Assembly: GCF_013371215.1 (NCBI RefSeq)
Contig: NZ_JABWMH010000002.1
Span: 124,001 to 188,000, forward strand
Direction of reading: 5' to 3'
DNA from: Parasphingorhabdus flavimaris
GTDB taxonomy: Bacteria; Pseudomonadota; Alphaproteobacteria; Sphingomonadales; Sphingomonadaceae
DNA: 64,000 nt
Positions 11,306 to 24,789 of the stretch are shown here, in pieces; position 1 is the first letter of the stretch, and each line of letters opens with the position of its first letter. The notes beneath the pieces were generated by a model. That model was not told the DNA's origin. It saw only the letters and a list, made by a program, of their open reading frames with translations, and ran no database searches. The translations under genes and the position numbers were made by a program.

Positions 11306-11320
11306 GTTCTCCCCTTGTTC
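11306..11320 (+). promoter_or_regulatory. LexA (SOS) box upstream of recA
   Basis: GTTC (11306-11309), seven bases, then GTTC (11317-11320): an exact match to the alphaproteobacterial LexA site GTTC-N7-GTTC. It ends 75 bp before the recA ATG. The second half-site also forms part of a 7-bp inverted repeat, TTGTTCT-ATG-AGAACAA (11315-11331). Confidence 0.85.
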
Positions 11321-20447: not shown

Positions 20448-20628
20448 ATCGCTTAGACTTTCCTGCAACGGGAGCAAAAGGGAGGAATAGATGTTGCGAG
20501 CCTCTTAGCAAAGATTGTCATTTGTTCAACCTCGAGTTGCGGACGCTCGCGCAAAAGCCTGATGACCGTCTTCTCGATAAATCAACGGGAGTGTTGTCAG
20601 ATTAATGGGCCGTCCCTAAGTAGCGTTC

Positions 20629-21363
20629 ATGGCAATTGAGAAATATTCGAACAAGGGGCTGGGAGAAGCCAAGTGGGCTTTTCCGCCGATCCATCCTGAA
20701 GGTCGCAAATTTGCGGTTATCGCAGGGCTGGTCACTGCGTTTTTTGCCGTCATGGCATGGGAAACCCTGGCCTGGCCGATGGCCGGCATTACCATATGGG
20801 TGTTGGCGTTTTTCCGCGATCCCAAGCGGGTTACGCCGCTTGACGAAAAATATATCGTTGCGCCGGCCGATGGCCTCGTGAATCTCATCATGCCGGTAAA
20901 GCCACCTGTCGAATTGCAGGGCGAAGGCGGCCTCGGTAATGAGGAACTCATCCGGGTGTCTATATTCATGAGCGTGTTTGATGTTCACATCAACCGCACG
21001 CCCATCGAAGGAACGGTAAGGCGACAGGCCTATATTTCGGGCAAGTTCCTTAACGCCGACCTGGATAAGGCGAGCGAAGAAAACGAGCGGCAGCATTTTC
21101 TGGTCGAGCGCAATGATGGTCTGAAGGTCGGTTTTACGCAGATCGCTGGCCTTGTGGCACGCCGGATCATGTCCTTTGTCAAGGAAGGCGATTTCGTAGC
21201 TGTCGGACAACGAATAGGGCTGATTCGATTTGGTAGCCGGGTTGACGTCTATTTGCCCAAGGGGACAGAGCCCAATGTCGTCCTCGGTCAACGGACCATC
21301 GCCGGAGAAACGGTGATCGCGGTCACCGGCCAGATGAAAGAGATTGAAGGCGTCGGCCAATGA
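20629..21363 (+). CDS. psd: Phosphatidylserine decarboxylase proenzyme
   Basis: A 244-residue short-type Psd with a membrane-associated N-terminal hydrophobic region (about residues 28-62). The self-cleavage site is G202-S203 in [13 protein letters not shown]203 becomes the pyruvoyl cofactor of the alpha chain. H120 in [10 protein letters not shown] is the conserved base. It converts phosphatidylserine to phosphatidylethanolamine at the inner membrane. pssA, the preceding enzyme of the pathway, follows 37 bp downstream. Confidence 0.95.
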
Positions 21364-21400
21364 TCAGCAGGCTGACCGGCTTTCGATCGGAGCAAATTTG

Positions 21401-22192
21401 ATGGCTGACAAAGGTTCGATGAAAAGGCCCGAGAGAGGCATCCCGTTGCGGGCCTTTGTGCCCAATGCGGTCACTGCGCTCGCGCTTTGCGTCGGTTTGA
21501 GCAGCGTCCGGTTTGCCTATATGGAAAATTGGGTGCTGGCAGCGTCAGCGATTGTGCTGGCAGGCATATTGGATGGTCTTGATGGCCGCATTGCCCGATT
21601 GCTGAATGCACAGAGCCGTTTTGGCGCGGAACTAGACTCGCTGTCGGATGTTATCGCTTTTGGCGTGTCCCCGGCGCTGGTCATGTTCTTCTGGTCGACT
21701 CAATATATGCCGCAATTCGGGTGGGTGTTGGCGCTGACCATGGCCGTCGGTTGTGCGCTCAGGCTGGCGCGCTTCAATGCGTTGATCGATGATGAAGACC
21801 AGCCTCACAAATCAGCAGGCTTCCTGACCGGTATTCCGGCGCCCGTCGGCGCGGGTCTGGCGATGCTACCGTTATATTTGTGGTTGATAACCGATCAGGA
21901 AATCTTCCGCCATTATGCGCTGGTATCTCCGTGGATCGTGATCATCGCTTTTCTGATGATTTCCAATACCGCGACCTACAGCTGGTCGTCGCTGCGGCTC
22001 CGCAAGAATATCAGACTGGAGGGCATAGCGGTGATCGGGCTGCTCGGCGTTGCCCTGATCAGCGCGCCGTGGATCATGCTGACGGCGATAAGCATCGCCT
22101 ATCTGTCGATGATCCCGTTCAGCGTCAGAAGCTATGCCAAGGTCAAGCGGCAGCGCGCAGCGGAGCGGACTGCAGCGAGCGGTGGCGCGTAG
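21401..22192 (+). CDS. pssA: CDP-diacylglycerol-serine O-phosphatidyltransferase
   Basis: A 263-residue membrane enzyme with the CDP-alcohol phosphotransferase motif DG-LDGRIAR-x8-G-xxx-D-xxx-D (DGLDGRIARLL, then GAELDSLSD). It makes phosphatidylserine from CDP-diacylglycerol and serine, feeding Psd. About seven to eight transmembrane segments. ATG at 21401 has GGAG upstream; an in-frame start at 21344 would overlap psd and adds a polar extension. The last 50 bp overlap the convergent small gene at 22143-22385. Confidence 0.94.
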   Translation: MADKGSMKRPERGIPLRAFVPNAVTALALCVGLSSVRFAYMENWVLAASAIVLAGILDGLDGRIARLLNAQSRFGAELDSLSDVIAFGVSPALVMFFWSTQYMPQFGWVLALTMAVGCALRLARFNALIDDEDQPHKSAGFLTGIPAPVGAGLAMLPLYLWLITDQEIFRHYALVSPWIVIIAFLMISNTATYSWSSLRLRKNIRLEGIAVIGLLGVALISAPWIMLTAISIAYLSMIPFSVRSYAKVKRQRAAERTAASGGA

Positions 22193-22385
22193 CCAGCTGC
22201 TGCGTTTTTACCGTCCGATGACGATAGGTCGGCGAATGCGATGCTGCTGACGTTTGATTGGTCGCAATTCCGCTCTCAATGACGCTGCGGATTTTTCCGT
22301 GATATTGAACAAACATCAGGCCGATGACCAACAGGGCGCCGGCAAAGGCGAGCGCAAAAAAAGTGGCGATAGCGATAGTGAGCAT
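22143..22385 (-). CDS. Small single-span membrane protein with an SOS box upstream
   Basis: An 80-residue protein. One transmembrane segment occupies about residues 3-26 (ATFFALAFAGALLVIGLMF), followed by a YHGKI stretch and a polar, basic, low-complexity tail. ATG at 22385 has GAGG seven bases upstream. A LexA box (22423-22437) and a consensus TTGACA (22442-22447) lie just upstream on the same strand, so I infer DNA-damage induction. Known SOS-induced small membrane proteins of Caulobacter (SidA, DidA) block cell division; this could be an analogue, but no sequence match is claimed. Its last 50 bp are antisense to the end of pssA. Confidence 0.7.
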   Translation of the reverse strand: MLTIAIATFFALAFAGALLVIGLMFVQYHGKIRSVIESGIATNQTSAASHSPTYRHRTVKTQQLATRHRSLQSAPLRAAA

Positions 22386-22818
22386 GATACGACCTCGTTT
22401 GTTCTTTCAATGAGCGCTTAATGTTCTATTTCTGTTCTCATTGTCAAGCGCTTTATCAAATCATGACAAAAATACGAATCGGGAATCAAAAGGTTGCATG
22501 ATGCCATTTAGACGCGGTCAGTCGTTGGTTATCGGCGACGGACGCACTGGTACCGCTGGTTTCCGACCATGACTTCTATCTCCGCAAGTTCTTTAGTGTT
22601 CGGAAGGGCTTGTGATACCGGCCGGTGAAATGGTTGGCGCAGCAAGAGGGCGCAAACATGTTCGCCTGAACCCAATTTAGGGTTGCATTCTACTCCGCTT
22701 CGCCTTAACGGCACGCTCATTCCACATGGAAAGCACTCATACCGGTGCCGATAGCGGTCTTTCAGGTCGTTTGAGGTTCTCAGCTTTCCAGAGGCATAAC
22801 CGGATAAGGAGAAATATT
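22386..22818. other. 433-bp region between the small SOS gene and rpsB
   Basis: The left end holds the LexA-controlled promoter of the minus-strand gene. The remaining roughly 370 bp presumably contain the rpsB promoter and a long leader. I see no convincing gene: short frames on both strands lack Shine-Dalgarno sites and family resemblance. A structured S2 autoregulatory leader is possible, but I cannot identify one by eye. Confidence 0.5.
22423..22447 (-). promoter_or_regulatory. LexA (SOS) box and -35 element before the small membrane-protein gene
   Basis: Read on the minus strand: TTGACA (22447-22442), then GAAC-N7-GAAC (22437-22423). On the plus strand the box is GTTC TATTTCT GTTC, an exact GTTC-N7-GTTC match. 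It lies between the -35 and the expected -10, 38 bp before the start codon, the classic repressing position. The -10 itself is weak. Confidence 0.75.
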
Positions 22819-23754
22819 ATGGCGGCCCCTGTCGTCACCCTACAGCAATTGATTGAAGCCGGAGCGCATTTCGGCCACCAGACCCACCGCTGGAACCCGA
22901 AGATGAAGCCATATATCTTCGGCGCCCGCAACAGCGTCCACATTCTTGACCTTTCGCAGAGCGTGCCCTTGTTCGCACGGGCACTTGATTTTATCGCCAA
23001 CGCCACATCGGCTGGCGGCAAGGTCCTGTTCGTCGGTACCAAGCGTCAGGCGCAAGAGCCGATTGCCGAAGCAGCGCGCGCAAGCGGCCAGCATTTTGTC
23101 AACCATCGTTGGCTCGGCGGCATGCTGACCAACTGGAAGACAATTTCCAACTCGATCCGCCGGATGAAGACTTTGGAAGAGCAGCTCGGTGGTGACACCG
23201 CTGGCTTTACCAAGAAGGAAGTCCTGCAGATGACGCGCGAGCACATCAAGCTGGAACTGTCGCTTGGCGGTATCCGTGACATGGGCGGCATTCCCGATGT
23301 CATGTTCGTGATCGATGCCAACAAGGAAGAGCTCGCCATCAAGGAAGCCAATGTTCTGGGTATTCCGGTTGTCGCGATTCTCGATTCGAACGTTGATCCC
23401 AGCAACATCGCTTTCCCGGTTCCGGGTAATGACGATGCCGCACGGGCCATTCGCCTCTATTGCGAATCGGTTGCTGCAGCAGCCACCAAGGGCGGCCAGG
23501 ACGCTTCGGTTGCAGCTGGCACAGATCTCGGAGCAGCGGTTGCTCCTCCGGTCGAGCAAATTGTTTCGAGCGAAGCCAATGCAAGTGCGATGACTTCCGG
23601 AGAGGAAGCAGCTATTGCCGATATTGCTGAGATTGCAGCAGAAATGGCACCGGCTGAAGCAGCTCCTGCTGAAGCTCCGAAAGCGGAAGAAAAAGCGGCT
23701 CCCAAGAAAGCTGCCGCGAAAAAAGATGACAAAAAGGCAGACGAAAAAGCCTGA
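22819..23754 (+). CDS. rpsB: Ribosomal protein uS2 with Lys/Ala-rich C-terminal extension
   Basis: 311 residues. The first roughly 235 are a standard S2 ([46 protein letters not shown]). The remaining roughly 75 residues are rich in Ala, Glu and Lys and end with alternating KK and DDKK clusters; tails of this kind occur in alphaproteobacterial S2 but this one is long. ATG at 22819 is preceded by AAGGAG at 22806-22811. First gene of the large rpsB-tsf-pyrH-frr block. Confidence 0.97.
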
Positions 23755-23771
23755 GCTTGAAGCATCTTTTT

Positions 23772-23790
23772 GCAGCCATATATTGGCTGC
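23772..23790 (+). terminator. Small hairpin downstream of rpsB
   Basis: GCAGCC (23772-23777) and GGCTGC (23785-23790) form a 6-bp stem with a 7-base loop, 18 bp after the rpsB stop. No T-run follows. It probably works together with the stronger hairpin at 23805. Confidence 0.35.
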
Positions 23791-23804
23791 TACGAAAAAT
23801 AAGC

Positions 23805-23829
23805 GGGGCGACATTTTTGTCGCCCCAAT
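23805..23829 (+). terminator. Terminator-like hairpin between rpsB and tsf
   Basis: GGGGCGAC (23805-23812) and GTCGCCCC (23819-23826) form a perfect GC-rich 8-bp stem around ATTTTT. Only AATTT follows, so it is likely a partial terminator or attenuator setting the S2 to EF-Ts ratio. Confidence 0.6.
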
Positions 23830-23865
23830 TTCACATTTCCCGATCAAGAAATTGAGGAACAGATT

Positions 23866-24789
23866 ATGGCTATTACAGCAGCAGCAGTGAAAGAACTGCG
23901 CGAGCGCACCGGCGCTGGCATGATGGATTGCAAGAAAGCGCTGAACGAAACCAATGGCGACGTCGAAGCAGCGGTTGATCTGTTGCGGACCAAAGGTCTC
24001 GCCGCAGCTCAGAAAAAATCTAGCCGTACGGCAGCAGAAGGCCTCGTCGGCGTCTCGGTCGAAGGCACCAAGGGTGTTGCTGTCGAAGTGAACAGCGAGA
24101 CCGATTTCGTTGCCAAGAATGACCAGTTCCAGGATTTTGTTGCCAAGGTAACAACCGTTGCACTGGGTCTGAACAATGACGATGTCGAAGCTCTGGCTGC
24201 GGCAGATTATCCTGCTGGCGGCACCGTAAAAGACGTGCTGACCAACAATGTTGCGACAATTGGTGAAAACCAGACGATCCGCCGCATGAAGACGGTCGCC
24301 GTCTCGAGCGGGCTGGTCGTTCCTTATGTCCACAACGCTGTCACACCCACGATGGGCAAGATCGGTGTCCTGGTTGCGCTGGAAAGCACGGCTGGCGCTG
24401 ACGTTCTCGAGCCACTCGGCAAGCAGATTGCGATGCATATCGCTGCTGCCTTCCCGCTGGCGCTGAACGCTGACGGCCTCGACCAGGAAATGCTCGCACG
24501 CGAGCGCGCAATCGCGACGGAAAAGGCAGCTGAATCAGGCAAGCCGGAAAATATTGTCGAGAAGATGGTCGACGGTGCGATGGCAAAATTCGCCAAGGAA
24601 AATGCATTGCTCAGCCAGGCTTTCGTGATGGACAATAAAACTCCTATCGCGCAAGTCGTCGAGCAAGCCGGTAAAGAAGCCGGTGTTGAAATCAAGCTCA
24701 CCGAATATGTCCGGTTCCAGCTTGGTGAAGGCATTGAGAAGAAAGAAGAAGATTTTGCAGCGGAAGTTGCTGCTGCGGTTGCCGGCTAA
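23866..24789 (+). CDS. tsf: Elongation factor Ts
   Basis: A 307-residue EF-Ts. The N-terminal UBA-like domain reads [19 protein letters not shown]; the core has the TDFVAKND motif that contacts EF-Tu. It exchanges GDP for GTP on EF-Tu. The length is normal. It follows rpsB after a 111-bp spacer with a hairpin, the usual rpsB-tsf arrangement. Confidence 0.97.

Follow-up and report, generated by a model that had tools for sequence, protein, structure and literature searches.

In Escherichia coli, the SOS-induced division inhibitor SulA is degraded by Lon for recovery, and in Caulobacter crescentus SidA comprises 29 residues. Sphingomonads, among them Sphingomonas, Novosphingobium, Erythrobacter and their kin, are abundant bacteria with uses in biotechnology. 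Outside enterobacteria, small membrane SOS brakes are described as acting on FtsW, FtsI or FtsN (PMC4211646, PMC6851548, PMC13396833). SidA, itself alphaproteobacterial, is LexA-repressed within a regulon whose motif is GTTC-N7-GTTC (PMC12700426), and two further papers present it as a small inhibitor that is anchored in the membrane and does not target FtsZ (PMC6851548, PMC4211646). Loss of sidA relieves the filamentation seen in a lexA deletion of Caulobacter (PMC12700426). SosA of Staphylococcus aureus is an SOS-induced protein of 77 aa with one span near the N-terminus and conservation just after the span, and the study describing it puts forward the extreme C-terminus as the part that controls turnover (PMC6851548). 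YneA of Bacillus subtilis and ChiZ of Mycobacterium are DNA-damage-induced single-span inhibitors of late division, with YneA interacting with FtsW (PMC13396833), and DidA of C. crescentus, a small membrane protein induced by damage, inhibits division and binds FtsN (PMC4211646). An earlier note on the locus described here had named both SidA and DidA as SOS-induced parallels; the comparison with SidA stands, whereas DidA, according to PMC4211646, is driven by DriD and is independent of SOS control.

For the sphingomonad family, the SulA model (PF03846) exceeded its Pfam cut-off in none of 99 genomes, with a positive E. coli control and one sub-threshold match (G136), in keeping with the earlier note's view that these bacteria lack an obvious sulA. 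The open-licence literature, judged from titles and the starts of abstracts, gave no account of the present gene or of a sphingomonad SOS division inhibitor among the matches listed. A window of 64,000 nucleotides from Parasphingorhabdus flavimaris was analysed together with related genomes, and one of its small genes emerges, by analogy with the systems above, as a strong candidate for a protein that halts sphingomonad cell division upon DNA damage. New here are the conserved Ala-Ala end of the encoded proteins, an antisense codon bias in pssA that preserves it, and its retention in two pssA-less genomes. Neither the conserved end nor the spread of the gene through the family figured in the earlier note.

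The small membrane-protein gene and its promoter

The candidate is an open reading frame on the minus strand at 22143..22385 (80 codons from the ATG, with the stop included in the range), which its homologues and dN/dS values mark almost certainly as a real gene. The earlier note had described an 80-residue single-span protein under a LexA-type promoter, a description borne out by hydropathy and by the homologues. The single hydrophobic stretch (about residues 4-27; 22305..22376, minus strand) reaches a hydropathy of 2.47 over 19 residues and is, with little doubt, a membrane span. It is followed by the juxtamembrane segment YHGKIRSVIESGI (22266..22304, minus strand), for which the same-genus alignment gives the consensus Y-x-x-K/R-I-x-x-V-I; M24 and F25 at the end of the span, together with Y28, I32 and V35, are invariant among the 25 aligned members. 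The protein closes with Arg-Ala-Ala-Ala (22146..22157, minus strand), a putative ssrA-like degradation tag coded opposite pssA codons. On the plus strand, the convergent neighbour pssA (21401..22192; the name comes from the earlier note, and the neighbour is conserved by tblastn) overlaps the small frame tail to tail with the last 50 nt of its 3' end (22143..22192), exactly the overlap previously reported, and the divergent neighbour rpsB (22819..23754, plus strand; read by eye) served as the synteny anchor.

Among 41 members, no Pfam family was matched at E 0.01, the window protein itself giving one unrelated sub-threshold match; the Pfam LysM domain was not found in these members or in the window protein. 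NCBIfam returned nothing meaningful for the 41 (two single-member matches, both to unrelated models), and no PHROGs model fitted any of them. Plasmid records contained no match to the small protein, Rfam gave none within 20500-24000, and no terminator-like site was found on the minus strand within 21300-22900, a result that speaks neither for nor against read-through.

Upstream of the start codon, a LexA-type box at 22423..22437 reads GAACAGAAATAGAAC on the minus strand and GTTCTATTTCTGTTC on the plus strand, where it is an exact GTTC-N7-GTTC, and a -35-like TTGACA (22442..22447, minus strand) stands just upstream of it. This is the exact box behind TTGACA that the earlier note had pointed out. 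The order on the minus strand is TTGACA (22447-22442), GAAC-N7-GAAC (22437-22423), 37 nt and the ATG; the spacer between the -35 and -10 elements is filled by the box, which extends into the -10 region. A generic promoter-consensus scan did not report the TTGACA site. Also as claimed before, the same type of box precedes recA (read by eye) at 11306..11320 on the plus strand, 11.1 kb away, and further ones occur elsewhere in the genome before uvrA and beside a uvrD-like ORF (read by eye).

The counts themselves are weak evidence: four exact boxes occur in the window against 1.93 expected, with at least four in 16 of 100 shuffles, and GAAC-N7-GAAC-N-T occurs at 22 sites genome-wide compared with 15 for its reversed form, so that most single sites could be chance. 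The LexA-box claim therefore rests on conservation, which in both genus and family places the box at the small ORF far beyond chance. With the LexA DNA-binding domain (PF01726) over its cut-off in all 13 genomes tested, own genome included, the small gene is very probably under LexA control.

Several other SOS-type boxes were observed in the genome. At L090:1501-2856 (G000:C3:681,934-683,289), the near-consensus box GAACAAATATAGAACAT heads what appears to be an SOS operon encoding two membrane micropeptides, its order being a 30-aa single-span ORF, a 52-aa ORF, a 28-aa span ORF, a 66-aa ORF and the gene for SRAP (SOS response associated peptidase). Elsewhere, such boxes lie 47 nt before an ORF for a C-5 cytosine DNA methylase, the N-terminal region of which resembles a helix-turn-helix by eye (G000:C1:527,986; L074), 32 nt before a 413-aa radical SAM ORF (G000:C1:232,111; L073), and before a possibly mobile DUF7146/Toprim primase-like ORF (G000:C3:776,934; L091). 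In the leader of the small gene (22386-22422), a third GAAC lies 18 nt after the box; it is preceded by GTTCAT in 25 of 30 same-genus loci, though not in the window, forming a GTTC-N7-GAAC leader element of conserved position.

Conservation in the genus and across the family

The protein is present in 30 of 32 same-genus genomes, including all 24 with a completeness of 90% or more and a contamination of 5% or less, and the two misses are genomes only 67% and 73% complete; the 18 relatives with a name carry the labels Sphingorhabdus, Sphingopyxis, Sphingomonadaceae or Sphingomonadales. The frame and TTGACA are intact at all 30 loci, as is an exact GAAC-N7-GAAC, which stands at -52 in 29 of them and at -53 in one; the inner seven bases of the box vary. 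Outside the pssA overlap, dN/dS ranges from 0.08 to 0.51 in the 25 closest, non-independent pairs among 25 gap-free same-genus sequences. Codons 1-40, covering the span and juxtamembrane segment, have a mean pN of 0.08 and pS of 0.34, compared with 0.21 and 0.41 for codons 41-62. As judged from these substitution values, the protein is under purifying selection outside the overlap. One same-genus genome (G024, L251) has rpsB about 2.7 kb away from the SOS gene, which has remained, together with its box, beside pssA.

A search with the single sequence matched 0 of 28 genomes outside the genus, which, set beside the 30 of 32 inside it, suggested a genus-only gene; profile searches and synteny overturned this reading. 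With a 25-sequence profile (E <=0.1), matches were obtained in 34 of 298 family genomes; 28 of these belong to other genera, and their matches are mostly weak. When 24 outside-genus loci were fetched, an exact upstream box in the same orientation was present in 19 and an Ala-Ala end in 21, and the 8-kb context of 20 such loci showed, in 12, the same opposite-strand ORF cluster directly downstream, read as pssA from its size and order.

The region upstream of rpsB was then compared in 122 genomes, namely 117 of 119 sampled family genomes (a sample of 91 genera) and five from the order sample. In 96 of these 122, pssA lies upstream of rpsB on the same strand (tblastn), and 92 of the 96 pssA-rpsB gaps carry an exact box, against 1.35 expected from mononucleotide shuffles; frame and box, on whose joint conservation in relatives the earlier note had staked its claim, thus occur together in these gaps as they do in all 30 same-genus loci. 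In every one of the 96 gaps, an ORF oriented towards pssA encodes at least 45 aa and includes a hydrophobic 19-mer, and the four gaps without an exact box (L118, L120, L125, L176) have a one-mismatch box beside TTGAC. Control patterns were much rarer in the same 96 gaps: GAAC-GAAC spacings from 3 to 12 other than 7 occurred in 0-11, the box on the opposite strand in one, the reversed CAAG-N7-CAAG in five and the inverted arrangements in eight and four. TTGAC lies within 22 nt upstream of the box in 102 of 111 family loci, and at 9-12 nt in 95 (six of 117 rows, which have no box near the start, were left out of this count). Identity to the window protein is mostly 15-33% among the 40 family proteins compared, with 49% for one same-genus member. 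Read from this pattern, the conserved site is most probably a repressor site inside a promoter, kept across the family despite low protein identity.

Where pssA does not adjoin rpsB (26 family genomes), a pssA match was found elsewhere in 23 and none in G061, G154 and G080. Among 24 family pssA loci away from rpsB (G107 included), a box in the right orientation lies downstream in 21, and 18 have both the box and a transmembrane (TM) ORF of at least 45 aa. Neither the box nor the box with a TM ORF was found at any of six other-family pssA loci, and none of 14 other-family regions upstream of rpsB has the box, two of these stretches being shorter than 1.2 kb. The tally for the 117 family genomes is an exact box with a small TM ORF in 107 (88 beside rpsB and pssA, 19 at either), a one-mismatch box in four, an exact box with only a span peptide of 35 (G085) or 38 residues (G167) in two of one genus, an ORF without an exact direct box in two (G105, G142), and nothing found in the remaining two (G095, G080).

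In an order sample of 147 (apparently 86 family and 61 other), a profile built from 41 members matched 69 family genomes, profile members included; outside the family, it gave one weak other-family match with in-frame stops in this sample and three weak matches in a class sample of 144. At the sensitivity of the profile, the gene appears restricted to the family, and it is best regarded as a single SOS gene that has diverged strongly and that no Pfam or NCBIfam model covers. One testable candidate gene can thereby be named per genome in most of the family, and a gene too diverged for similarity searches becomes traceable by its promoter box, synteny and antisense codon choice.

The C-terminal Ala-Ala and its antisense codons in pssA

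For the analysis of the C-terminus, 117 ORFs were compiled from the 96 gaps and from 21 of the 24 pssA loci, excluding L252, L260, L267 and six outgroup loci; one row of the 117 (L272) is a wrongly picked ORF. The proteins end in Ala-Ala in 99 of the 117 and in Ala in 110, compared with Ala-Ala ends in four of 124 uncurated long ORFs from 20 loci. Counter-evidence comes from the 18 of the 117 that lack this end (L272 among them); of the five rows without a pssA overlap only two have it, and L233 and L235, in which box and span are retained, terminate in ITL and NLA.

The overlap with pssA is present in 112 of 117 loci and has the same phase in 106 of these 112, the main phase placing the second codon position of the small gene opposite the third position of pssA. 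Across the 106 loci, pssA Arg codons opposite the penultimate Ala are CGG in 80 of 87 cases, compared with a frequency of 0.30 in the pssA body. Opposite the last Ala, Lys codons are AAG in 38 of 39 (background 0.60) and Arg codons AGG in 58 of 59 (background 0.045), a figure in part fixed beforehand, since the antisense stop can form only if the pssA codon begins with A. Opposite the antepenultimate residue, CAG shows no enrichment (47 of 59 vs 0.89) and CGG only a slight one (15 of 31). This bias therefore indicates that selection acts mainly to keep the two final alanines and the stop, with binomial and P values overstated because the genomes are related.

In two genomes without a pssA match (G061 and G154; L198 and L201), the small ORF still ends in RAAA and keeps the box and TTGAC; it ends 14 and 16 nt, respectively, from an ORF read as psd, with no pssA overlap. 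These two genomes belong to one genus, in which the psd-like ORF is kept though the pssA of relatives is unmatched. The possibility that pssA itself imposes the Ala-Ala end was considered and excluded by the varying pssA residues, the overuse of CGG, the lack of antepenultimate CAG enrichment and the RAAA end without pssA. Six other-family pssA loci have other C-terminal codons, and are too few and too diverged to form a formal control.

Hydropathy revealed a second span in none of 110 family members (seven of 117 rows were dropped for want of a terminal Ala or a clear span). The median net charge is +7 for the tail and 0 for the N-terminal flank, and the tail exceeds the flank in 108 of 110. 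A cytoplasmic C-terminus is therefore predicted from the basic tail by the positive-inside rule, and in this orientation the Ala-Ala looks like an ssrA-type degradation tag. Each of the 10 family genomes tested has a tmRNA tag with -IAA or -LAA at its end (own genome's tag, ANDNEALAIAA), so the small proteins and the tags have the same last two residues. The terminal di-alanine of ssrA tags is described as recognised by ClpX (PMC9601184); PMC9981736 concerns a different alanine contact and not the Ala-Ala ends of Caulobacter substrates. The C-terminal Ala-Ala is thus likely to be a degradation tag, from which we infer that the protein is degraded. At two loci, L272 (G167) and L273 (G085), the SOS-type promoter is kept and the protein has shrunk to 38 and 35 residues, respectively, little besides the span, which suggests that the span and juxtamembrane segment may be the effector and the tail a timer.

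Proposed function and comparison with known systems

The size, control, span, juxtamembrane conservation and likely turnover signal all agree with those of small membrane SOS brakes. From the gene, box, promoter layout, span and Ala-Ala end, as read in the sequence, we infer induction, topology, degradation and a division target. The best reading, to which a probability of about 0.55 is assigned, would be an SOS-induced and quickly degraded membrane inhibitor of division that works like SidA, SosA or YneA; for division inhibition as such, with the step and the target drawn from the parallels, the odds seem somewhat better than even. In the proposed mechanism, LexA bound in the -35/-10 spacer would keep the gene off until RecA-triggered LexA cleavage switches it on, and the single-span protein of about 80 residues would then insert so that the N-terminus faces outwards and the basic tail the cytoplasm. 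Its transmembrane/juxtamembrane helix may block late septum synthesis, most likely at FtsW, FtsI or FtsN, and the exposed C-terminal Ala-Ala would lead to fast removal by ClpXP or a similar protease, as a result of which division could resume after repair.

The least unlikely alternative is an SOS-induced membrane-active peptide that lowers the membrane potential or slows growth and does not target the divisome. E. coli has small span peptides under SOS control (TisB, DinQ) that provide precedents, and the most reduced homologues, of 35 and 38 aa, barely exceed one span. However, the conserved juxtamembrane residues and a basic tail of about 50 residues with a conserved end exceed what a pore peptide needs, and the lack of an Rfam match around the gene points the same way, even though many antitoxin RNAs lie outside Rfam. 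Slightly less probable, and still unlikely, is that the division inhibitor is another SOS gene, such as the 30-residue span peptide at G000:C3:681,982, and that the window gene acts otherwise at the membrane. That 30-codon single-span ORF begins about 30 nt after the box GAACAAATATAGAACAT, is followed by a 28-codon span ORF and the SRAP gene, and is nearer SidA in size, but plasmid records yielded no match to its operon.

It is improbable that the main role is to damp pssA, and with it phosphatidylethanolamine synthesis, during damage, whether by convergent or antisense transcription or through the protein acting on PssA. The near-constant overlap and phase would fit such a role, as would the tendency of the gene to stay with pssA where the pssA-rpsB neighbourhood is broken (18 of 24 loci); yet an overlap is hard to separate, so that the linkage needs no function, and purifying selection acts on the protein itself outside the overlap. 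The suggestion of the earlier note that antisense transcription lowers pssA, taken as the main purpose, is not supported: the two genomes without a pssA match retain the gene, box, TTGAC and C-terminus. A chance ORF antisense to pssA, with box and ORF unrelated, would be compatible with the window statistics alone and with the low sequence conservation across the family, but its probability is negligible given the box conservation in genus and family, the spacing control, TTGAC, the codon test, dN/dS and the pssA-less genomes.

Returning to the SOS-induced division inhibitor, a far-reaching version would make it a family-wide SOS checkpoint with its own destruction timer, the timer codons being written antisense in the last codons of a phospholipid-synthesis gene, such that SOS blocks septation and at the same time trims PssA by convergent transcription, coupling arrest to lipid supply; this version is unlikely. 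If the tail works as proposed, the protein would represent a division brake whose two terminal residues let cytoplasmic proteolysis set its release.

Compared with known systems, the putative inhibitor would share with SulA the features of an SOS-induced division inhibitor that needs degradation, whereas SulA is cytosolic and targets FtsZ. YneA and ChiZ differ from it by an extracellular LysM domain. SosA has an extracellular C-terminus and is a proposed CtpA substrate, whereas the sphingomonad tail is predicted to lie in the cytoplasm, and its ssrA-like end points to ClpXP. SosA and YneA are thus described as acting with extracellular C-terminal parts, and the charge rule predicts the opposite for 108 of 110 family proteins. 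In relation to SidA, to which it is likened by size, control and span and not by sequence, the window-type protein stands apart with its length of about 80 aa, its basic tail, its conserved Ala-Ala and its coding tail to tail with pssA.
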